A stretch of 64,000 nucleotides of DNA from the NCBI RefSeq assembly GCF_000317085.1, contig NC_019702.1, positions 1,890,394 to 1,954,393 on the forward strand. The letters run 5' to 3'. A program made the translations under genes and the position numbers. The DNA is from Synechococcus sp. PCC 7502 (GTDB lineage Bacteria; Cyanobacteriota; Cyanobacteriia; Pseudanabaenales; Pseudanabaenaceae). Shown here piece by piece: positions 1-48,112 of the stretch (positions are counted from its first letter, which is position 1; each line of letters begins with the position of its first letter). The notes beneath the pieces were generated by a model. The model made no database searches. It was not told the DNA's origin and saw only the letters and a program-made list of their open reading frames with translations.

Positions 1-372
1 TTGCATGAGTTAATCGATCCCGATAAAATTCCGGCGATGATGGAGCGGGGTATCATTGAACTGGCACCTCTGGCATATATGCGGGGACGTACTCTCAATA
101 ATGCTTTTATCATTGTCGATGAGGCACAGAACACTACCCCTGCCCAAATGAAGATGGTACTGACAAGATTAGGCTTTAATTCTCGTATGGTGGTAACTGG
201 TGACATTACCCAGATTGACCTGCCTTCCCATCAACATTCAGGTTTGATTAATGTGAAAAATATTTTGGCGGGAGTCGAAGGGGTAGCGTTTTCCTACTTT
301 AATAAAAGTGATGTAGTTAGGCATCCATTAGTGCAAAGAATTGTTGCCGCCTATGAAAGTGATGAAACTTAG
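1..372 (+). CDS. phoH: PhoH family ATPase, C-terminal part (5' end outside window)
   Basis: This is the C-terminal 123 residues of a PhoH-like P-loop NTPase; the gene begins before the window. The Walker B region FIIVDEAQN lies at about residues 36-44 of the visible part and the conserved MVVTGDITQIDLP block at 63-75. The Walker A part is not visible. PhoH proteins are cytoplasmic ATPases of the helicase-like class, often linked to RNA metabolism, with no settled substrate. The last 66 bases of the gene and the bases just after its TAA recur as a second copy at 3091-3197, so the gene end marks one edge of an inserted island. Identity is secure for the family, not for a specific role. Confidence 0.93.
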   Translation: MHELIDPDKIPAMMERGIIELAPLAYMRGRTLNNAFIIVDEAQNTTPAQMKMVLTRLGFNSRMVVTGDITQIDLPSHQHSGLINVKNILAGVEGVAFSYFNKSDVVRHPLVQRIVAAYESDET

Positions 373-413
373 CAATGACTTTAGGCTCAAGGATTAGGCA
401 GATGGAAGTCTAA
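307..413 (+). repeat. Direct repeat copy A: phoH 3' end
   Basis: These 107 bases cover the last codons of phoH, its TAA and about 40 downstream bases. They recur in the same orientation at 3091-3197 with about 6 mismatches by eye. This copy is the functional gene end, because it is in frame with the rest of phoH. Confidence 0.92.
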
Positions 414-829
414 TAACTTATAAAATCTAAAAAAACTATAATTACAGTTATTTTTATAAGACTTTTTGTTATCCCAAAAACTAGATTTCATAAATATTTT
501 CCTGTGTTGGTATTTGCATATTTGCGATAGATAATTATCAACAATAGCTTTGTTTTTCAAATTATTGAGTCTAGATTGCAAATATTATTAGTAGATAGAC
601 ATGAATATATTTATGAGAATTAATATAAAACTGATTCTTTGTATATTGATACTATCTTTATCTATTTTTTTTTTTTAGTATGAACTATTCATGATTTTGT
701 TTTACGAAAGGTAGATATTTGACTGGCGAAGAAAAAAATTCATATTGTATTTGAGAAGCTCAATAACAGAACCATATTAAATATCTAAAAAAAAGTGGGA
801 TGATTTAGATTTAAACTTGGAGGTAAAAG
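414..829. other. AT-rich spacer at the left end of the island
   Basis: This 416-bp stretch is very AT-rich, with runs of T near 661-680. I see no convincing gene. A 64-codon minus-strand frame (581-387) has biased Lys/Asn/Phe composition, overlaps the phoH-end repeat and has no family resemblance. The next gene's ribosome binding site (GGAGG, 819-823) lies at its right end. There is no HIP1 octamer. Confidence 0.6.
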
Positions 830-3060: not shown

Positions 3061-3090
3061 TTTATAACCTGCATATATTGCAGAACTAAG

Positions 3091-3197
3091 AGTGACGTAG
3101 TTAGGTATCCATTAGTGCAAAGAATTGTTACCGCCTATGAAAGTGATGAAACTTAGCAATGACTTTAGGCTCAAGCATTAGGTACATGGAAGTCTAA
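3091..3197 (+). repeat. Direct repeat copy B: duplicated phoH 3' end
   Basis: This copy repeats 307-413, including the final phoH codons, stop and downstream bases, with about 6 mismatches over 107 bases. It is not attached to a phoH gene. It ends 8 bp before the stop codon of the convergent gene at 3206-4336. Together the copies bracket 2.7 kb of AT-rich DNA. The simplest reading is that phoH and the next gene were once adjacent and convergent, and that the island arrived with duplication of the phoH end. Confidence 0.9.
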
Positions 3198-3205
3198 AAA
3201 TATAG

Positions 3206-12229: not shown

Positions 12230-14098
12230 TTATGAGGATTTTATTGATTCCTGCTCTGTTAGGCGTAAAACCTGATCTTTGGTTAGCATAGAGCTAGTTG
12301 CTTCAGTTTCAATTATATTGGGGAGTTCGGTTTTGGTTGCAGCAATTTTATCAGCGATCGCTTGTTTAGTTAAAGCGGTACTGTAGGCAGTTGTAATTGC
12401 CTGTCTTTCGATAATACCTAAAACTCGACTGGTAATGTTGCGATCAACTACGGGTAATTGTCTTAAATCTCTGGTTTCCATCCGCCGCAGAGCTTCTGCT
12501 AAAGATTCATCGGCATGGGTATATAGTAAATCTCGACTGCAAATTTCACTAACGGTCATGAGGTTTAAGCGTTTACTAAGATTGCGCTCTATATCTTGAG
12601 TTGTCACTATACCCACTAATTGATGGGATGAGTCCATTACTAAAGCACTATGAAAATAGCCACTGGTCAAAACCTGTGCTGCTTGTAATACTGGCATTGA
12701 GGCTCTAAAGGACATGGGATGGGAGTTCATAACTTCAGCAATTTTAATTTTTTGCAAAATATCTGCCTCCGCCCTTACCTGCTTTCCCTGTTGGGGGTAA
12801 ATTTGCTCGACCATCCACGCACATAGTCCCACGGCTGCCATAAGTGGTAAAACTATGCGATAGTCACGGGTCATTTCAAATAAAAGCAATACTGCGGTTA
12901 GGGGAGCGCGGACTGTACCTGCTAGGACTGCTGCCATTCCGACTAAAGCATAGGCAGGAGGAGCAGCGATCGGCATGGTCACGGGCATGATTAACCCCAA
13001 AGCCTGACCATAGGCACTACCAAGAATAGCCCCCAAGAAAATAGCAGGAGCAAAGGTTCCGCCCACAAAACCACTGCCAAAGCAGATACCTGTTAGTAAT
13101 AATTTGGCTCCCAGTAAGAGAAGGCGAAACCAGAGGGAAAAAGGAGAATCTTGCAGGATCGACTCTACGGTTTCATAACCTATGCCCATGACTTCAGGTA
13201 GTTGGGTCGCCGTTAAGCCCACGCATAGTCCCCCGATCACAATCTTTAACGGCATGGGAATTTCTCCTACGATCGCTAATCTAGGAATTTTCCCCGCAAA
13301 TAAATCTTGGGATATTTTTAAGGTTTTACTGAAGGAGATCGCCACAAAACTGGCTAATACTCCTAAACCAAGATATAGAGGTAGTTCCCAAAAACCGCGT
13401 ACATCATAGACAGGCAAATTAAAAGCAGGTTCTCCGCCTAGTCCAATTTGGGCAACTAGTCCTGAAACCACCGCCGCAATCACGACAACTGTAATTGTAT
13501 TGTTAAGATTAGACCGTTCCGCCCCTAGAGAACCACCTAAAACCACTTCAAGGGCAAAAAATACCCCTGCGATCGGAGCATTAAAGCCTGCCGATAATCC
13601 CGCCGCCGCCCCCGCACTCACCAGTAGCCGAATTCTTTCGCTGGAAAACTTTAATACCTGCCCCAGCAAAGAACCAATATTACTGCCAAGTTCTACACTT
13701 GGTCCCTCTGGTCCTAAGGAGGCACCTGCCCCAAGGGACATCGCTGCAGCTAGGGTTTTAAGGGGAATTTTTGCATAGGGCAATCTTCCCCCTTCCTTGG
13801 CAACGGCATTGGATAAACCACTAAAACCCGCTTCAGTTTGTTGAATATAAATTCTGAGAAAGCTAACAACAAGACCTCCTAGTACTGGAATAATAGCGAT
13901 CGCCCAAGGATTAATCGTATTAAGCTTCAGAGCTAGATCATGCCAGTACAGATTTTGCATGAAGCCAATTAAAAACCTAAATAGGCAAACACCAATTCCC
14001 GTAGCTATGCCTACAATCATTGCTACCACAAGCATCACAACGGCGGCTTGAGGCTGAAAGCGATTAAGCAGGTTAACTAATATGGAGGAAATTTGCAT
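12230..14098 (-). CDS. ClC-family chloride channel/transporter with CBS domains
   Basis: A 622-residue membrane protein with about ten hydrophobic segments over residues 15-435. Anion-pathway motifs are GAGASLGPEGPSVELGS at 123-139, whose Glu131 matches the gating glutamate of the GREGP motif, and GSGFVGGTFAPAIFLGA near 345. The C-terminus has two CBS domains (about 450-570), which usually bind adenine nucleotides and tune gating. A gating glutamate is found in both channels and Cl-/H+ exchangers. I cannot decide between them. The gene heads a run of three on the minus strand (ClC, GUN4-like, Hpt). Confidence 0.93.
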   Translation of the reverse strand: MQISSILVNLLNRFQPQAAVVMLVVAMIVGIATGIGVCLFRFLIGFMQNLYWHDLALKLNTINPWAIAIIPVLGGLVVSFLRIYIQQTEAGFSGLSNAVAKEGGRLPYAKIPLKTLAAAMSLGAGASLGPEGPSVELGSNIGSLLGQVLKFSSERIRLLVSAGAAAGLSAGFNAPIAGVFFALEVVLGGSLGAERSNLNNTITVVVIAAVVSGLVAQIGLGGEPAFNLPVYDVRGFWELPLYLGLGVLASFVAISFSKTLKISQDLFAGKIPRLAIVGEIPMPLKIVIGGLCVGLTATQLPEVMGIGYETVESILQDSPFSLWFRLLLLGAKLLLTGICFGSGFVGGTFAPAIFLGAILGSAYGQALGLIMPVTMPIAAPPAYALVGMAAVLAGTVRAPLTAVLLLFEMTRDYRIVLPLMAAVGLCAWMVEQIYPQQGKQVRAEADILQKIKIAEVMNSHPMSFRASMPVLQAAQVLTSGYFHSALVMDSSHQLVGIVTTQDIERNLSKRLNLMTVSEICSRDLLYTHADESLAEALRRMETRDLRQLPVVDRNITSRVLGIIERQAITTAYSTALTKQAIADKIAATKTELPNIIETEATSSMLTKDQVLRLTEQESIKSS

Positions 14099-24325: not shown

Positions 24326-24466
24326 AACTTAGCAAACCAATCTTGACTAATAATCAGTTAGATTTATTTTGGTATTTCTTGAGCCATAATTAATCTGGGT
24401 TTGAAAGCCTTGATCAAAAAATTGTATTTCTAAACAAGAATCTGTCCTGATAATTAAAGTAAATCT

Positions 24467-25567
24467 TTGCTCATTAACCTATCTTTTTTATCATCAAAGC
24501 CAACGGGCATAAGTGTTTATGCTAAAAATCTCTGTAATTATTTAGGGAGATCGCTTGATTCAACTTTACTTATATCTAAGCCTGCTTTAGCATCATTTTC
24601 CCAATTATGCCTTGACTCATCAAAATATTATTTGATTCCCGACACCATGACCCCGATCCAAGGCACAAGAGGACATGCAGCCAGATTAGCTTGGACACAA
24701 TGGCAATTACCAAAGATTTATCAAGAGCTTAGATCAAATCTACTTTTTTCACCTGTGGCTGAAGCTCCTATATTTACTAAATGTCGTTATGTAGTTACGA
24801 TCCATGACATCATTCCTGTGAGATTTCCCCGATGGTCATCCTCTTTAACCTATTACTATCGCTTTTGGGTACCTTTAGTTTTGAATCAGGCGGAACATAT
24901 TATTTGTAATTCTGAAGCTACAGCCAAGGACGTTAGCAGCTTTTTTAATATTCCATCTGCAAAAATTACGCCGATTTTACTTGCCTATGACCACCTCCAT
25001 TTTTATGAACAAGATGTTGTTCTGTCACCCAAGATTCCTTACTTTCTCTATGTGGGTCGCCACGATCGCTATAAAAATCTGGAACGATTGATTGCTGCCT
25101 TTGCTTCTTTGAAAAATCATCAAGATTATCAACTGTGGATTGCGGGGGCTAGCGATCGCCGTTTTACCCCAGATTTACACACCCAAGCTCAAGCATTAGG
25201 CATATCCAGCTTAGTTAAGTTCATAGACTATGTGACCTACGCCCAATTACCAGACCTAATCCGAGGGGCGATCGCCTTAGTATTTCCGAGTTTATGGGAA
25301 GGCTTTGGATTACCAGTTTTAGAGGCTATGGCTTGTGGCACACCTGTGATTACTTCCAATTTATCTTCTTTGCCAGAAGTAGTTGGAGATGCAGGAATTT
25401 TAATTGATCCCTATAACGTGGGGGCGATCGCTGATAGCATGCAAACGATTGGAGAATCGGCTAGTTTACGTTCCCAGCTTAGAAACTTAGGATTAATTAG
25501 AGCCAAGCAATTTCGATGGGAAACCACATCTGCCCTAACTGCTGAAGTTTTGCAGCGATTTATCTAA
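24467..25567 (+). CDS. Glycosyltransferase family 4
   Basis: A 366-residue retaining GT-B glycosyltransferase of the GT4 class. The N-terminal domain opens with the glycine-rich acceptor loop [13 protein letters not shown]. The C-terminal donor domain has [12 protein letters not shown], the E-x7-E motif in [18 protein letters not shown], and GDAGILIDP. It probably adds a sugar from a nucleotide-sugar to a cell-surface polysaccharide or glycolipid. Donor and acceptor cannot be read from sequence. The start is TTG at 24467; an upstream in-frame TAA excludes a longer form. No other surface-polysaccharide genes adjoin it. Confidence 0.9.
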
Positions 25568-40624: not shown

Positions 40625-41422
40625 CTAATCGCTCCTAGGACGAAATATATGACTGTGACTAGATTTATATAACTGCGATCGCTGAGAATTTAAGCTAGAT
40701 TTATTTTTCAAACTATTTTTTATAGCAGTTCTCAAAGCGGGGCTAATTAAATAAAGTGTGGTTCGGATTAAGTTCTCAGACTCTGTTACCGCAGCCATTT
40801 CCTTTAAAGGCACCGTCAGAATTTTTTGATCTTGCCACCCCAAATGGAAACAGATAGCAACGGGAGTATCGGCGGGATAGTGCAGCATTAATTGAGCTTG
40901 AGCCTTAGCCACATGACCCGCACTTAAATATAGGCACAAAGACGCTTGATGGGCAGCTAAACGGGCTAAATCCTCTGACTCTGGCACTTGAGTTCTTCCA
41001 CTGGCACGGGTAAGAATAATAGTCTGGACTAATTCGGGAATGGTTAACTCCACCTGTAACTGCGCTGCTGCCACCTGAAAAGCACTAACTCCGGGAATAA
41101 TCTCTACGGGAATATCGGCTGTTGCTAGTCCTACAATCTGCTCATGAATTGCTCCATATATACTTGGATCACCATCATGTAACCGCACTACTGATTTTTG
41201 CGATCGCACCCGATCTATGAGAATTTCTAAAATTTGTTCAAGGGTTTTACTGGCAGTGGGAATTATCTCTGCGTCATCTCGGCAGAATTGCAACATCGTC
41301 TCTGGAATTAAGGAATTGGCATACACCACTACATCCGCTTGGGTAAGGAGATCACGACCTTTCACTGTAATCAAATCTGGATCACCAGGTCCTGCCCCAA
41401 CTATATAAACGGGTCTATTCAT
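40625..41422 (-). CDS. cobM: Precorrin-4 C11-methyltransferase
   Basis: An SAM-dependent methyltransferase of the corrin branch of cobalamin synthesis (CobM/CbiF). The 265-residue protein has the family's N-terminal SAM-pyrophosphate-type loop VGAGPGDPDLIT (8-19). The mid-domain RLHDGDPSIYGAIHEQ follows near 100 and PGVSAFQVAAA near 135. The C-terminal ~25 residues extend past the normal end and are basic and Ser-rich. Its ATG overlaps the stop of the preceding minus-strand gene (41419-41422) by 4 bp, so it is translationally coupled to an unknown membrane protein. cbiD, another cobalamin gene, lies 1.3 kb away on the same strand. Confidence 0.93.
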   Translation of the reverse strand: MNRPVYIVGAGPGDPDLITVKGRDLLTQADVVVYANSLIPETMLQFCRDDAEIIPTASKTLEQILEILIDRVRSQKSVVRLHDGDPSIYGAIHEQIVGLATADIPVEIIPGVSAFQVAAAQLQVELTIPELVQTIILTRASGRTQVPESEDLARLAAHQASLCLYLSAGHVAKAQAQLMLHYPADTPVAICFHLGWQDQKILTVPLKEMAAVTESENLIRTTLYLISPALRTAIKNSLKNKSSLNSQRSQLYKSSHSHIFRPRSD

Positions 41423-41880
41423 TCATCTTTATTTTTATTTTTGGTTAAATGGGACAACCCAATTCCTGCCCCACCACCAACCACTATATTAATTAGCTTG
41501 TCAGGGAGGGTTTTATCTCCAGTAACTCCAGAATAGATAAATGACATTAAAATCATGCCAACAATACTGCCAAGAATCATCCTATTTGTATTTTCTCGGC
41601 GCTTATTTTGATCATCTTTGTGTTTAGCAAGCTGACTATGATAGTCAAACTGTCTCTGGTCGTTTTTATCTGCAAACTCTATCAAAGCTGATGGCTGATG
41701 ATGGGCAAGTGACTCTACGACACTTGGATTTACCATCATTGTACTTAAGGATTTTTCGTCTTTTTGGAGAAGTATTTGTAATATCTCTTGCTTTTCAAGC
41801 TCAGCCCTTTTTGCTTCTTCATTTTGTTTTAAAGATTCAGATGGGGTGGGATTTATTGATTGAGGTGTCAAATCTTCCAT
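41419..41880 (-). CDS. Unknown membrane protein coupled to cobM
   Basis: A 153-residue protein. The N-terminal ~100 residues are charged and helical (KQNEEAKRAELEKQEILQIL region). One hydrophobic helix at about 103-120 (ILGSIVGMILMSFI) and a Gly-rich hydrophobic stretch near 130-145 follow, then a Lys-rich end. A distant similarity to DUF2335-type membrane proteins is possible. Its stop overlaps the cobM start (ATGA), so it is read just before cobM. Its role in cobalamin synthesis, if any, is unknown. Confidence 0.7.
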   Translation of the reverse strand: MEDLTPQSINPTPSESLKQNEEAKRAELEKQEILQILLQKDEKSLSTMMVNPSVVESLAHHQPSALIEFADKNDQRQFDYHSQLAKHKDDQNKRRENTNRMILGSIVGMILMSFIYSGVTGDKTLPDKLINIVVGGGAGIGLSHLTKNKNKDE

Positions 41881-41899
41881 GACTAGTTTTTAGTATGCC

Positions 41900-42181
41900 C
41901 TAATATCCACTAATAAGACTTCTAGTAAGTGCGGAGGCAATTTTGGTACTTACTATGGCTTTTCTATCCCGAGATATAGAAATTAGATATGCTTCTTTTT
42001 CTGATGGCAATGACCAGTCACTAGTAACTGACATTCCTACCTTTCTGAGATGTGCGAGCTTTACATCAAATAATTTCTTATGATCCTTTGATGCTCCCAA
42101 TGGTAAAGAGAATCTAACTACTGCCGTACTCATTGCAACCCCTACTCCAAAGATTAATTTAACAACTTTAAAACTTTTCAA
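41900..42181 (-). CDS. Small unknown protein, start uncertain
   Basis: A frame of 93 codons from TTG at 42181. No Shine-Dalgarno fits that start. The ATG at 42133 (residue 17) has GGAG about 11 nt upstream and is likelier, giving 77 residues. The product is basic, with a hydrophobic patch at the start only if the longer form is used. No family recognised. It lies 19 bp before the coupled membrane protein gene, so it may be the first gene of that short operon. Confidence 0.5.
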   Translation of the reverse strand: MKSFKVVKLIFGVGVAMSTAVVRFSLPLGASKDHKKLFDVKLAHLRKVGMSVTSDWSLPSEKEAYLISISRDRKAIVSTKIASALTRSLISGY

Positions 42182-42375
42182 AAAAGTGCTGTCACTATAA
42201 TTTTGTCAGTAAATAGTAAATTTTGGGGTAAATTTTTGGTGATCTTAAATTATCTAAAGCTAAGTGAGGGGAAAAATTATGGAAAAATATATAAATCTTA
42301 AGTAGCCATTGCACCATCCCCTATTATTTACAGGGGGTAAACTATCAAAGCCATAAATACAAGTTTTTAAAACCT

Positions 42376-42663
42376 ATGACTGATCGAAATACCCAGATGA
42401 TTTTGGAGCATATTGATCGCCTTGAGCAGCGATTTATTGGGTTAGAAAGACAATTTGCCAACCTAGATATTAATCTGAAGACCGAACTCAAGGATGCGAA
42501 TGTCAGGATAGATGCTTACCAAAAATCATCGACTCAAGTGGTAAGAATGGCTATTGCTGTGATTAATGCTACGGCGCTCGTCCTGATTCTTAGTCCGCTA
42601 GTTCAAGCACTAACTCCTACACTGGTATCTGTAGTTGAGAAATTTATGGCGACAAGAGTCTAG
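42376..42663 (+). CDS. Small coiled-coil membrane protein
   Basis: A 95-residue protein: residues 5-50 are a charged, heptad-like helix (ILEHIDRLEQRFIGLERQF), and about 57-83 form one membrane helix (VVRMAIAVINATALVLILSP). This layout (short coiled coil then anchor) is common in small cyanobacterial membrane-associated proteins of unknown function. It is convergent with cbiD (18-bp gap). No strong Shine-Dalgarno is visible. The composition and pattern support a real gene more than a chance frame. Confidence 0.65.
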   Translation: MTDRNTQMILEHIDRLEQRFIGLERQFANLDINLKTELKDANVRIDAYQKSSTQVVRMAIAVINATALVLILSPLVQALTPTLVSVVEKFMATRV

Positions 42664-42681
42664 GTAATTAATTGGTTAAAA

Positions 42682-43764
42682 CTAGTTATCCAAGATTAAT
42701 TGAGAATGGCGATCGCACAGAAAAACCTTAACTTCCAAAGTTTGTCCCGTATATTTTTGGATATATGCCTGAGCTTTTTGGCTAATTTGATCGGTTAAGT
42801 ACTTAAAAATAACTTGATCCAGCCCTTGGGTGATTAGTAACTTATGCACAGCCTCGGCAGTGGGCGATCGCTCAATTTGCTGAATAATTTCTATGGGTAA
42901 TTGGGCATGGACAGCCGCACGGGTGAGAATATCAATGCGTCCATCAGCAAGATGACTAGAAGTGTTAAAAATTCCGCCTGCAAGTTTTAATAATTTACCG
43001 TGATAGCCTACTAAAGTAATAGAGTTGACGTTTAATAGTGCCGCTTCAATTAACATCACCCCAATCCAATTAGCAGTTTGTACCAGTTGATCAGGTGAAA
43101 ATCCCATGTTTTGAGCCGTTTGATAGCCATTGGCACCGATATAAAAGACTAAGTCAGGATTTTGCCTAGCTTTAACTTGCAGATTGGCTCTAAACTCTTC
43201 TAATTTATCTTCCACTGATAACGGCTGAGATACTGCCCTAGTTCCCAGTAGTGCTAATCCTTCTAAAATTCCAAAGGCAGCATTAGAAGTACGCTTAGCT
43301 AGGGATCGCCCTTCAGGAAGGATAAATTTAATTCGTGCCGAAGTATGTGGTGGTAATAGGTGTAAAAGATTAATCTGTGCTAAGGTTTTTGCCAATTTAT
43401 AAATAGCAGGTTCCCCTGTAATTGTTTTGCCCAAGCCTTCGCCTGCCTCAAGGATAATTTCAGGATTTGCTGAGGCTTCACTTATTTCATATAACTGTAC
43501 CCAAGCCCAAACTGGAGTGCCAGCAGTTAAGTCTAAATTATCCCCGGGATCGCTGATTGTCATCCCTAGGGCAGTATTTTGATCTAATGGAGCAGACTGG
43601 GCGATCGCAATTTTCCCAATCCTTGAATTTAACTCAGAGTCTAATCCTGCATCCAGTAAATCTAAGTACACAGCCTCTAAATTCTCGCTGGGATTTGCCA
43701 ATCTTAAAATAGCCGCCTTAGCCGCAGCGATCGCAAATACAGGCAATGTATAACCAGTTTTCAT
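42682..43764 (-). CDS. cbiD: Cobalt-precorrin-5B C1-methyltransferase
   Basis: Methylates C1 of cobalt-precorrin-5B in cobalamin synthesis. The 360-residue protein has the family's opening KTGYTLPVFAIAAAKAAI, the SAPLDQNTALGMTISDPGDN region, EAGEGLGKTITGEPAIY near 125, and GYHGKLLKLAGGIFNTSSH near 255. The first 60 bases of the gene are duplicated at 46186-46246. It is transcribed away from the antiporter gene; their starts lie 88 bp apart. In the duplicate, the cbiD start overlaps the stop of the PhnD-like gene, so cbiD may once have followed that gene directly. Confidence 0.93.
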   Translation of the reverse strand: MKTGYTLPVFAIAAAKAAILRLANPSENLEAVYLDLLDAGLDSELNSRIGKIAIAQSAPLDQNTALGMTISDPGDNLDLTAGTPVWAWVQLYEISEASANPEIILEAGEGLGKTITGEPAIYKLAKTLAQINLLHLLPPHTSARIKFILPEGRSLAKRTSNAAFGILEGLALLGTRAVSQPLSVEDKLEEFRANLQVKARQNPDLVFYIGANGYQTAQNMGFSPDQLVQTANWIGVMLIEAALLNVNSITLVGYHGKLLKLAGGIFNTSSHLADGRIDILTRAAVHAQLPIEIIQQIERSPTAEAVHKLLITQGLDQVIFKYLTDQISQKAQAYIQKYTGQTLEVKVFLCDRHSQLILDN

Positions 43765-43765
43765 T
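43705..43765 (-). repeat. cbiD 5'-end repeat, copy A (in the intact gene)
   Basis: These 61 bases cover the ATG and first 19-20 codons of cbiD. The same sequence with one mismatch occurs in the same orientation at 46186-46246, 2481 bp away. The matching ends one base or so before the ATG on one side and inside codon 20 on the other. Confidence 0.93.
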
Positions 43766-43851
43766 AATTTAGCTTAAGACAAATTAACCTATGATGGAAA
43801 GTGATTTTAGATAGTTAGCAAAACATTAAGAATTTACGATAAATAATCGGC

Positions 43852-45405
43852 GTGAATGTTACCGATCTAGTTAAGGTTTCCATAATTCTCTTACTCGTTG
43901 CCACTGGGGTTGCGTTATTGTCACGGCGGTTGCGTGTTCCCTATGTTACAGGGCTAGTATTGGCAGGTTTACCAATCACAGAATTGTTATCACGGCGGAT
44001 TGGCTTAGACCCTGCCCTAGTTTTAAATCTTTTTCTACCCATTCTAATTTTTGAAGCTGGAATTAATACGGATGTTAGTCGTCTGCGCAGTACATTTAAA
44101 CCCATAGCACTTCTCGCTGGACCGGGGGCTTTAGTTTCTAGTGGAATTATTGCGGTTCTCTTAAAGTTTGGGCTGGGACTAGAGTGGATACCTGCTTTAT
44201 TTGTGGGTGTAATTCTAGCAAATACTGATACGGTTTCTATGATTGCTGTGTTTAAGGAAATCCCAGTTCCCGCCAGACTTTCTAGCATTGTGGAAGGAGA
44301 AACCCTTTTTAATGATGCGGCGGCTTTGGTTGCATTTAATCTGATTTTTCAAGTGTATGCCACAGGCTCTCTAACAGTTATAGAGGGCATCCAACAACTG
44401 CTATTTATTGCGATTGGCGGCGGCATTGTAGGAGGAGTTCTAGGTTATTTATGCATTCCTATATTCACTCGTTTGGATGATCCCCTTGGTAGTTTATTAC
44501 TAACAGTTGCTCTTGCCCTTGGTACTTTTCAAGTTGGACAGATGTTGGGGGTGTCAGGAGCAGTAGCGGTAGTAATTGCAGCTTTAATTTTTGGCAATTT
44601 AGGGCTTTCTGCCAATACTTCTGCCTCAACTAAAATTACTCTATCCAGCTTTTGGGAATATGCCAGTTTTACCGTTAATACCTTTATTTTTCTCTTAATT
44701 GGCTTAGAAATTAATTTGGTGACTTTATGGATGACTTTACCAGCAATTCTATTTGCAGTTTTAGCATTTCAGATAGGACGAATTGTCACAGTCTATCCTT
44801 TGCTAACAGGCGTGCGGTGGATTGATCGTGCCATTCCCCTGCGTTGGCAGCATCTAATGTTTTTTGGCAATATCAAAGGCTCTCTCTCTATGGCATTGGC
44901 TTTAAGCTTGCCGACAACTCTACCTGGACGAGATATTCTGATTGCTATCGTCTTTGGCTGTGTACTGGTGTCACTGATTGGACAGGGTTTAAGCTTACCG
45001 TGGCTAGTAAAACGCTTAAATTTATCTCAGGTTTCCGCTGATCAGCATCAGGTTGAGGAATTACAGGCACAGCTAATAACAGGTAAGGCGGCACAGGATG
45101 AATTAGACAGCCTATTGAAATCAGGAGTGCTACCAAAATCTGTCTATGAAGAAATGCGGTCTAGTTATCAAGTTCGTATTGCTGGTGCCGAAAAAACACT
45201 AAGAGAATTTTATAATCGTCGCCCTGAAGAATCTGAGCCTCAAAGTGGCGATCGCCAGAAACTGGATACTATTCGACGGCAGTTACTATTGGCAGAAAAA
45301 GGCGCATTAAATGAGGCATTGCGGAAGCGGATTTTATCTGAAGGAATTGTCCGAGGACGAATTCAAGTCATTGATCAGCAATTATTACAGCTTGATGATA
45401 ATTAA
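43852..45405 (+). CDS. Sodium/proton antiporter, CPA1 (NhaP) family
   Basis: A 517-residue cation/proton antiporter with about 12 membrane segments over residues 5-385. The ion-binding pair is Asn154-Asp155 in LFNDAAALVAF. The C-terminal ~130 residues (about 390-517) are cytoplasmic and include a long charged helix. The start is GTG at 43852. The gene is paired, convergently, with a TrkA-type regulator 11 bp away. The two lie between the cbiD duplicates, which suggests they were inserted together. Ion choice (Na+, K+ or Li+) is not readable. Confidence 0.92.
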   Translation: MNVTDLVKVSIILLLVATGVALLSRRLRVPYVTGLVLAGLPITELLSRRIGLDPALVLNLFLPILIFEAGINTDVSRLRSTFKPIALLAGPGALVSSGIIAVLLKFGLGLEWIPALFVGVILANTDTVSMIAVFKEIPVPARLSSIVEGETLFNDAAALVAFNLIFQVYATGSLTVIEGIQQLLFIAIGGGIVGGVLGYLCIPIFTRLDDPLGSLLLTVALALGTFQVGQMLGVSGAVAVVIAALIFGNLGLSANTSASTKITLSSFWEYASFTVNTFIFLLIGLEINLVTLWMTLPAILFAVLAFQIGRIVTVYPLLTGVRWIDRAIPLRWQHLMFFGNIKGSLSMALALSLPTTLPGRDILIAIVFGCVLVSLIGQGLSLPWLVKRLNLSQVSADQHQVEELQAQLITGKAAQDELDSLLKSGVLPKSVYEEMRSSYQVRIAGAEKTLREFYNRRPEESEPQSGDRQKLDTIRRQLLLAEKGALNEALRKRILSEGIVRGRIQVIDQQLLQLDDN

Positions 45406-45416
45406 TAGAACAGAAG

Positions 45417-46094
45417 CTATTTACAGCCCTCAATAAAATCTATAACTTGATGTAAACACTTTGGTTTAGTTACGATTAAAACAGTTGAATATGGCTCTAA
45501 TACTGTGCTGCCATTGGGAATCATTAAGTCTTCGTGGGGATGAGGTTGATAGCCAATAATTAAAGAGCCAGTGGGAAAGCGTTGATCTTGGGCAATTTCA
45601 GCGACACTGCGACCCACAACATAACAGTTATTAGGAATAGATAGTTTTAACACTTCAATTTGTCCCTGCTCAAAATGCATCATTGACTCGACTTCAGGAA
45701 ATTCGATCGCATTTACCATAGTCGCAACTCCAAGTTCAACAGTACTGATAATATGGTTAGCTCCAGCAATGCGTAGGGGTTCAGTAAAATCAGTGTGGCG
45801 CATTCTACTCAAAACATGGGGAACACCATAATGTTTAGCCAAAGTTACCATTGCCAAATTTAAGGCATCACTTCTCAAGACCGCAGCCATAGAGCCAGCT
45901 TTACGAATTCCTGCTTCTAATAATACTTCGGTACTTACAGCACTACCTTCAAAAGCCATTGCACCAACTTGCTCACGGGCATAACGACAGGCTACTGGAT
46001 CAATATCAATGACGGCAACAGTATGTCCCAGTTCTATAAGTTTTTGCGCTAAAGATAGCCCAACCAAGCCTGCACCGCCAATTAGTACGTACAT
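45417..46094 (-). CDS. TrkA-type (RCK/KTN) potassium-transport regulatory protein
   Basis: A 225-residue cytosolic protein with an N-terminal Rossmann TrkA-N domain (about 1-120; nucleotide motif GGAGLVG at residues 6-12) and a C-terminal TrkA-C domain (about 135-220). Such proteins gate potassium channels or cation antiporters by binding NAD(H) or nucleotides such as c-di-AMP. Here the neighbour is a CPA1 antiporter, which it may regulate. It ends 11 bp from the antiporter gene and lies on the opposite strand. Confidence 0.9.
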   Translation of the reverse strand: MYVLIGGAGLVGLSLAQKLIELGHTVAVIDIDPVACRYAREQVGAMAFEGSAVSTEVLLEAGIRKAGSMAAVLRSDALNLAMVTLAKHYGVPHVLSRMRHTDFTEPLRIAGANHIISTVELGVATMVNAIEFPEVESMMHFEQGQIEVLKLSIPNNCYVVGRSVAEIAQDQRFPTGSLIIGYQPHPHEDLMIPNGSTVLEPYSTVLIVTKPKCLHQVIDFIEGCK

Positions 46095-46185
46095 ATTTGC
46101 CTAATACCCAAAGACTTAACTACTTCACTCTCAGTGTATAGCTTAGCAAGTCAGTGCAGGTGATTTTGATAATGTAACCCCTTCG

Positions 46186-46246
46186 TAAAATAGCCGCCTT
46201 AGCCGCAGCGATCGCAAATATAGGCAATGTATAACCAGTTTTCATT
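46186..46246 (-). repeat. cbiD 5'-end repeat, copy B (detached)
   Basis: This is a 61-base copy of the cbiD start (60 of 61 identical to 43705-43765). Its ATG (46245-46243) overlaps the TGA of the PhnD-like gene (46244-46242) as ATGA. The cbiD frame runs on past the repeat into unrelated codons and stops within about 20 codons, so it encodes no CbiD. Confidence 0.93.
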
Positions 46247-47111
46247 TTTTCTCATCATTTTTTTCATACAATGGTGCTGGTTTTTGTCTAATTCGGGTAA
46301 CAATTGGCTTAACCCTCTTTACCACTTCAATTAAAAAAGTATAGTCAGGGGGTGGAACATTGGTAATATATCCAGCCTCGGCAATAATTGTCGGTGAAGC
46401 AGATTTCATCGCTGTAACAATTTGCTCTTGTAAATTTCGTTCCACTGTTGGCGATAGTAAAACCATGCCGGGCGGAACACCTTGGGAAACACTGGGTAGA
46501 ATACGGAATTTTTGCTGACCAAATTCACTACTAAATCGATCATATTCTGTTTTAGATACTGCTCCTGCTGCAACTTCTCCACTATTTACCATTTCTAGGA
46601 TCGCTTTAGGGGTGGGTGCAAATAAAATCTCTGCCAGTTTCAAGCCATATAGTTCATATATTGGTAAGTAGTAACCCGTAGCAGAACCGATTTGTCCTAG
46701 GGCGATCGCCTGATTTTGCAAATCCAGTATTTTTTGGACAGGGCTATCTTTGCGTACCACCAGCACAGAGCGCAGATTGGGAGAGCCTTCCATCGAGAAT
46801 AAGGGTAAGTATTTTTCCTGAGAAATGGCAACCGCAGCTAACCCAGGTGTAGCAAAAACTAAAGACCAATTGTGACGTTGGATTTGTTCTAATGCCTTAA
46901 CTTCATTAAAAGCTGGCTCTAGTTCAATCAATGTATTCGTTTGGGTCGCTAAATAATCTTGAAAGCGTCCATACTGATCAATAGTCTTGTTGCCCTCACC
47001 ATAACTAACAATGCCAATCACAAGCTTATTTCTGGTGACCAGTTTCTCGGTGGCACAACCAGCCAGTAGCCCCATTAAAAATTGACTTAGGAATAATCGA
47101 CGTGAAACCAT
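46242..47111 (-). CDS. PhnD-like phosphate/phosphite/phosphonate-type binding lipoprotein
   Basis: A 289-residue periplasmic binding protein-like product. The signal peptide ends in the lipobox LLAGC (Cys19), so it is lipid-anchored. The mature part has the PhnD-type two-lobe fold, with LVIGIVSYGEGNKTIDQYGRFQDYLATQ-type opening (residues about 30-57), WSLVFATPGLAAVAI and GSATGYYLPIYELY in the ligand-binding region. No permease or ATPase gene is adjacent. Genes nearby encode a haem sensor and a kinase, so a signalling role instead of transport is plausible. Its stop overlaps the detached cbiD start. Confidence 0.85.
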   Translation of the reverse strand: MVSRRLFLSQFLMGLLAGCATEKLVTRNKLVIGIVSYGEGNKTIDQYGRFQDYLATQTNTLIELEPAFNEVKALEQIQRHNWSLVFATPGLAAVAISQEKYLPLFSMEGSPNLRSVLVVRKDSPVQKILDLQNQAIALGQIGSATGYYLPIYELYGLKLAEILFAPTPKAILEMVNSGEVAAGAVSKTEYDRFSSEFGQQKFRILPSVSQGVPPGMVLLSPTVERNLQEQIVTAMKSASPTIIAEAGYITNVPPPDYTFLIEVVKRVKPIVTRIRQKPAPLYEKNDEKK

Positions 47112-47212
47112 AATTCACTAAAATCTTATCAAACACTTAGAAATCACTTTGGACTGCCAAGGATGGGTTTATACTTATACAGTCCACATTGTAAAGCCAT
47201 TTCAAAGCCACA

Positions 47213-48112
47213 ATGTTAAATAATCTTAGACTTGGTGCAAAGTTTAACCTACTGCTAATAACAGCTTTTCTAATTAGTATTGTGATTAGTGGGATAGCTT
47301 TGTCAGCGATCGTAAATCGTAATGCGGAGGAGCAAGTTGTTTCTAAAGCTTTAATTTTGATTCAAACTATGAACTCTGTGCGTAATTATACTAGTACGCA
47401 AGTTAATCCACAGTTGGCAGCCAGATTAGAGACAGAATCAGAGTTTTTACCTCAAACCGTTCCAGGGTACTCTGCCCGTGAAGTCTTTGAAAATCTGCGG
47501 ACAAATAGGGACTATGCCGACTTTTTCTATAAAGAAGCCACATTAAACCCCACGAATTTAAGGGATAAAGCGGATAGCTTTGAGTCAGATTTAATCCAGA
47601 GTTTTCGGAATAACTTGAGTACAAAAGAATTAACAGGCTTTCGTTCTTTTCCTGGTGGAGATTTATTTTATATTGCTCGACCCATAACTATTGGCAAAGA
47701 AAGTTGCTTACGTTGTCACAGCACCCCTGAAGCTGCCCCCAAAAGTATGATTGCTAGTTACGGACGGGATAATGGCTTTGGTTGGAAGTTAAATGAAGTT
47801 GTGGGTGCTCAGATTATTTCTGTTCCTTCCCAAGAGATTATTAATAATTCTCGACAGTCTTTAATATTAGTGATGTTGGTGGTGTGTAGTATATTTGCGA
47901 TTACTATTTTGATTATTAATTTACTGTTAAAACAGGCGGTAATTAAACCCCTCAAGAGTATGGCTCAGGTTGCCCATGATGTGAGTACGGGAAAAATGGA
48001 TAGTGAATTTCAGCAGACATCCCATGATGAGATCGGAGTTTTAGCTAATGCCTTTAACCGCATGAAACTAAGTTTGGTAATGGCAATGGAAATGTTAAAT
48101 AAGCCTCAATAG
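47213..48112 (+). CDS. Membrane sensor with Tll0287-like haem domain and HAMP
   Basis: A 299-residue protein. TM1 is at about 12-33. The periplasmic Tll0287-like (DUF3365) domain spans about 40-210, with a c-type haem motif Cys165-Leu-Arg-Cys168-His169. TM2 is at about 215-240 and a HAMP domain at about 240-290. It ends soon after the HAMP, with no kinase, cyclase or methyl-accepting domain. It probably passes a redox or gas signal to a partner. The divergent PhnD-like gene and the convergent Ser/Thr kinase are candidates. Confidence 0.88.
   Translation: MLNNLRLGAKFNLLLITAFLISIVISGIALSAIVNRNAEEQVVSKALILIQTMNSVRNYTSTQVNPQLAARLETESEFLPQTVPGYSAREVFENLRTNRDYADFFYKEATLNPTNLRDKADSFESDLIQSFRNNLSTKELTGFRSFPGGDLFYIARPITIGKESCLRCHSTPEAAPKSMIASYGRDNGFGWKLNEVVGAQIISVPSQEIINNSRQSLILVMLVVCSIFAITILIINLLLKQAVIKPLKSMAQVAHDVSTGKMDSEFQQTSHDEIGVLANAFNRMKLSLVMAMEMLNKPQ

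Follow-up and report, generated by a model that had tools for sequence, protein, structure and literature searches.

An antiporter/TrkA gene pair bracketed by a duplicated cbiD start in Synechococcus sp. PCC 7502: a probable insertion with long target duplication

In Helicobacter pylori, restriction-modification genes provided the case from which insertion with long target duplication was described (Nobusato et al., 2000, cited in PMC3031569 and PMC1643837). As the citing papers present it, a restriction-modification passenger is frequent in such insertions but not strict. The locus reported here is like those of H. pylori in that passenger genes without a transposase are bracketed by a direct duplication of target coding sequence (62/64 identical here), and unlike them, as far as that account goes, in that the passenger is an antiporter/RCK pair and not a restriction or addiction system. 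With moderate confidence, the locus probably belongs to this class. No paper linking long target duplication with cyanobacteria was found among those searched. Partial gene duplication and templated insertion are also produced by microhomology-mediated repair at rearrangement breakpoints. Templated insertion is similar to the present case in that tens of bases are copied from a nearby gene end, but it does not predict the ATGA fit at the phnD stop described below. An integrative element with att repeats differs in that no recombinase is found among the two genes between the copies, and a composite transposon in that no flanking IS is present in 42600-47300. Genome shuffling has left a real scar at the locus, one of a type already known from bacteria and seen fairly often in cyanobacteria. 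It matters as a datable scar of bacterial genes moving although no mobile element can be identified; it reveals no new gene function.

The window is a stretch of 64,000 nucleotides of the Synechococcus sp. PCC 7502 genome (NC_019702.1, positions 1,890,394 to 1,954,393). The features that concern the bracketed pair are as follows:

24351-25567, plus strand: glycosyltransferase with its leader (gene 24467-25567); the leader abuts the antiporter start in the sister genome G001
42682-43764, minus strand: intact cbiD (cobalt-precorrin-5B C1-methyltransferase; TIGR00312, 279.8 bits, above cut-off; PF01888)
43702-43765, minus strand: repeat copy on the intact side, the first 61-64 bp of cbiD (62/64 against 46183-46246)
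43766-43851, no strand: divergent cbiD/antiporter intergenic region, 86 bp, without counterpart elsewhere in the genome or in 10 relatives
43852-45405, plus strand: CPA1-type cation:proton antiporter with a GTG start (PF00999, Na_H_Exchanger, 228 bits)
45417-46094, minus strand: TrkA-type RCK protein (TrkA_N + TrkA_C; PF02254, PF02080), convergent with the antiporter
46183-46246, minus strand: detached copy of the cbiD start, its ATG (46243-46245) overlapping the phnD-like TGA
46242-47111, minus strand: PhnD-like periplasmic binding protein (PF12974, 96.8 bits; below NCBIfam cut-offs)
47213-48112, plus strand: Tll0287-like HAMP protein (PF11845 + PF00672), the conserved divergent neighbour of phnD

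A repeat search of the window returned a direct repeat of 64 nt at 43702-43765 and 46183-46246, with 62/64 positions identical and the copies spaced 2481 bp apart. The preliminary description had noted a 61-bp repeat of the cbiD start with one mismatch (43705-43765 and 46186-46246), and this repeat is real, with 60/61 positions identical; at the single mismatch, intact cbiD has GTA (V) and the detached copy ATA (I). The two copies have nothing in common upstream of ATG-2 or past about +61. A chance origin is excluded because repeats of at least 35 bp at 84% identity or more were absent from three third-order Markov simulations of 454 kb. The overlap of the detached ATG with the stop codon of the PhnD-like gene, also noted earlier, is seen in the raw sequence as a 4-nt ATGA (TGA at 46242-46244, ATG at 46243-46245), and the CPA1 antiporter and the TrkA-type gene are, as described, the only two genes between the copies. 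The antiporter scored 254.2 bits against TIGR00831, just under the curated cut-off of 279.6, and matched solved NHE/NhaP relatives with E values down to 7e-32. The 86-bp and 88-bp intergenic pieces that flank the pair had no second copy in the genome or in ten relatives from which a source could be named.

A short intact ORF of 41 codons, 20 of them derived from cbiD, starts in the detached copy. An ORF of this kind would suit a leader peptide or a coupling element for a neighbouring gene. Such a function is very improbable, as the copy lies downstream of phnD, already carries a missense change, is absent in relatives and gave no match in an Rfam search of the locus. Direct repeats at a gene end also resemble attL/attR, and the pair could then be cargo of an integrase- or transposase-driven element with the repeat as its attachment site. 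Within 42600-47300 no transposase, integrase, recombinase, IS or IS end was found, nor any inverted repeat of at least 16 nt that might terminate an element; the repeat consists of the start of a protein-coding gene, and the pair occupies unrelated sites in other genomes. The mobile-element reading is already contradicted by these observations and is hardly credible. The lack of element machinery counts for insertion with long target duplication.

The pair itself is an old, ordinary and widespread convergent pair of cyanobacteria. Among 80 named cyanobacterial loci, most have a TrkA gene within about 1.5 kb of the antiporter, usually convergent; in Planktothrix it lies on the opposite side of the antiporter, and a minority have no TrkA gene within the stretch examined. 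Content and convergent order in the window are those of Nostoc, Calothrix and Microcoleus, among others, but the pair adjoins cbiD and phnD only here among the genomes examined, and neither gene was near the antiporter in any of the 80 loci. Plasmid-borne antiporters were distant ones only (<60%). The version of the pair found here is 84-86% identical to Nostoc proteins and 55-69% to those of other genera of its own family. In the antiporter and TrkA trees the window and its sister species G001 (MAG PMM_0082, 85% complete, the only other genus member) are sisters with support of 0.99 and 0.97, and together they nest inside a Nostocales/Planktothrix-type group. The identity values and the trees therefore indicate that the genus ancestor probably acquired a Nostocales/Planktothrix-like version of the pair.

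Between the window and G001, dS was 1.01 for the antiporter and 1.01 for trkA, compared with 1.07 for cbiD, 1.07 for the glycosyltransferase and 1.09 for pheA. Because the pair has the dS of these other genes, it has been inherited vertically since the genus ancestor. In G001 the glycosyltransferase leader reaches within 14 bp of the antiporter start codon, the homology of the antiporter between the two species starts exactly at its GTG start, and cbiD has an alpha/beta hydrolase upstream. The preliminary description had proposed looking for the pair elsewhere, and it does occur in many cyanobacteria and at a different site in the sister species. As its dS is at the vertical level and its site in G001 is different, the pair seems to have changed place inside the genome, a relocation and not a fresh import. 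Comparison of the two genomes alone does not tell which position is older; the fresh scar points to the window genome as the changed one. The detached copy has accumulated 1-2 changes in 61 bp, and a neutral copy as old as the species split would be expected to carry roughly 30 (half of dS 1.07). Because so few changes are observed against that expectation, the duplication event is recent. The cbiD start is itself well conserved, with 4/61 differences to G001, which constrains the intact copy only.

The account that we favour, and consider probable, is that the antiporter/TrkA pair was recently captured in the 5' end of cbiD by insertion with long target duplication. The 5' end of cbiD would have been broken where it met phnD in this lineage, and the old pair captured at the break. 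The repair would have doubled a target of roughly 61-64 bp, with one copy staying on phnD and the other heading the intact cbiD. In this scheme phnD-cbiD would have been the order before the insertion, the moved segment would derive from another part of the same chromosome, and the repair would have followed a staggered-break chemistry.

The ATGA overlap is of the sort typically seen where genes of a native operon meet, and counts for insertion. Because it is rare among close same-strand gene pairs (31/507, or 6%, in the sampled genome), it favours a former phnD-cbiD order without proving it. Against insertion, no empty phnD-cbiD site was found, as cbiD adjoins phnD in 0/61 other genomes that carry a close PhnD-like gene, the nearest case being about 50 kb away. 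The conserved neighbour in most phnD loci is instead the divergent Tll0287-HAMP gene. In G001, cbiD and the pair lie at other places, and phnD was not found in its 85% complete assembly. The earlier proposal that cbiD once directly followed the PhnD-like gene thus finds no parallel in relatives, which leaves the ATGA overlap as its evidence, and an ancestral phnD-cbiD operon would have been limited to this lineage at most. It is also a coincidence for a random target duplication that the second boundary lies 2 nt or less from the ATG. Of the broader reading, of a module sitting between copies of a gene terminus, the part in which the pair is a unit that occurs elsewhere and similar brackets exist in the genome is supported; the ancestral gene order is not.

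Repeats in the genome of strain PCC 7502 were surveyed in stretches totalling about 1.05 Mb of the chromosome. Local single-pair repeats of this size were eight direct and one inverted, and six of these are gene fragments that bracket other genes, namely cbiD, phoH, pheA, a SRAP/YedK-type gene, pirin and a 164-aa gene. The phoH case had been named earlier as the first bracketed module of the window, and its repeat is genuine:

303-416, plus strand: phoH 3' end, duplicated at 3087-3200 (114 nt, 93%)
3087-3200, plus strand: detached phoH 3' end, adjoining gshA (93% against 303-416)

Between these copies (817-2883) are two 174-aa ORFs, about 87% alike over 300 nt of DNA, and a 107-aa ORF, with no NCBIfam match; phoH adjoins gshA in no relative. 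The SRAP/YedK-type gene (chromosome 3084984-3089682) is interrupted by a 3.9-kb insert, and the middle of the gene is directly duplicated over 117 bp. The insert carries transposase-like frames at one end and three other genes, and the gene is whole in the relative G005; this split gene is a further point for insertion. At 1709345-1710525 of the chromosome, two small genes are flanked on one side by an intact gene start and on the other by a detached 45-bp copy of that start, in the same geometry as at cbiD. By eye, those two genes resemble a DUF433/DUF5615 toxin-antitoxin pair. At 1886878-1887675, a 158-aa gene lies between the pheA 3' end and a detached 64-bp copy beside an M3-type peptidase gene. 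At 3123477-3127035, a detached pirin start lies downstream of an azoreductase-like gene, and within the bracket an IS interrupts the start of an alcohol-dehydrogenase-like gene; a search of 115 other genomes gave no close pirin/azoreductase homologues. The flanks of the phoH, pheA and g1709 brackets are not adjacent in relatives either, a point against insertion that tells little about empty sites.

A multi-step rearrangement in an IS-rich genome (a tandem duplication followed by a deletion, or IS moves followed by loss of the IS) would make the bracket incidental. An IS of about 915 bp with two overlapping transposase frames has many near-identical copies in the 1.05 Mb, some of them in or beside bracketed cases, and gene order is strongly unlike that of relatives. 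These observations suit a multi-step origin, but neither an IS nor an IS end was found at the locus itself (42600-47300), and among the local repeats direct ones prevail (8, against 1 inverted). We regard this origin as unlikely, a little more so than the copying mechanism considered below.

This genome is not exceptional in gene-fragment direct repeats; other cyanobacteria show similar numbers. In 1.5 Mb of other cyanobacterial loci, 20 direct and 7 inverted repeats were found, some of them simple or dispersed, and direct local repeats amount to about 13 per Mb across the 80 loci. In Calothrix sp. PCC 7103 (L133:11513-13554), the antiporter is separated from the following gene by an inserted 501-aa membrane-fusion-like gene, and 164 bp of the junction are repeated directly on its two sides. 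The site is empty in four relatives (L126, L129, L132, L157), and the locus is a clear case of insertion with long target duplication. It counts for insertion at the window's locus as well, and with its four empty sites it shows that the process is at work in cyanobacteria.

Calothrix sp. FI2-JRJ7 is a warning that a bracketing repeat alone is no proof of insertion. Its locus (L157:9731-9818 and 13494-13583) has a detached 88-bp copy of the 3' end of a P-type-ATPase-like gene upstream of the antiporter; the gene order is shared by four relatives that lack the copy. The comparison shows that this bracket arose by patch copying and not by insertion of the pair. Both routes exist, and therefore the repeat alone cannot decide the case in the window. 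By the same route, cbiD and the antiporter would already have been neighbours when phnD was brought to the TrkA side by a later breakpoint, and 61 bp of cbiD would have been copied in as filler by template switching, with no module inserted between phnD and cbiD. A shared AATGA microhomology would explain why both boundaries fall at the ATG, and the FI2-JRJ7 copy is a precedent that weighs against insertion. Nevertheless, the filler must start at the cbiD ATG and land exactly on the phnD stop, and the antiporter adjoins cbiD in no relative. Such a templated patch is possible but unlikely, and capture by insertion with long target duplication is preferred.

A wider claim, that transposase-free relocation is recurrent in cyanobacteria and drops passengers, this pair included, at gene ends with target duplications of 45-165 bp, is improbable. 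Enrichment of brackets around the antiporter/TrkA pair was considered and rejected, since the two or three seen are about what chance gives in a rough estimate at ~13 per Mb. In Microcoleus/Tychonema (L140:9662-9870, L146:9714-9815, L148:8380-8476), a detached start of a 186-aa lipoprotein-like gene lies just upstream of the antiporter, and the intact gene is found 5-8 kb from it. In the window, cbiD and cobM are separated by three small genes (41419-42663), and in the relative G009 cbiD overlaps the cobM homologue. A 153-aa ORF also overlaps cobM by ATGA, though it is not a conserved neighbour.
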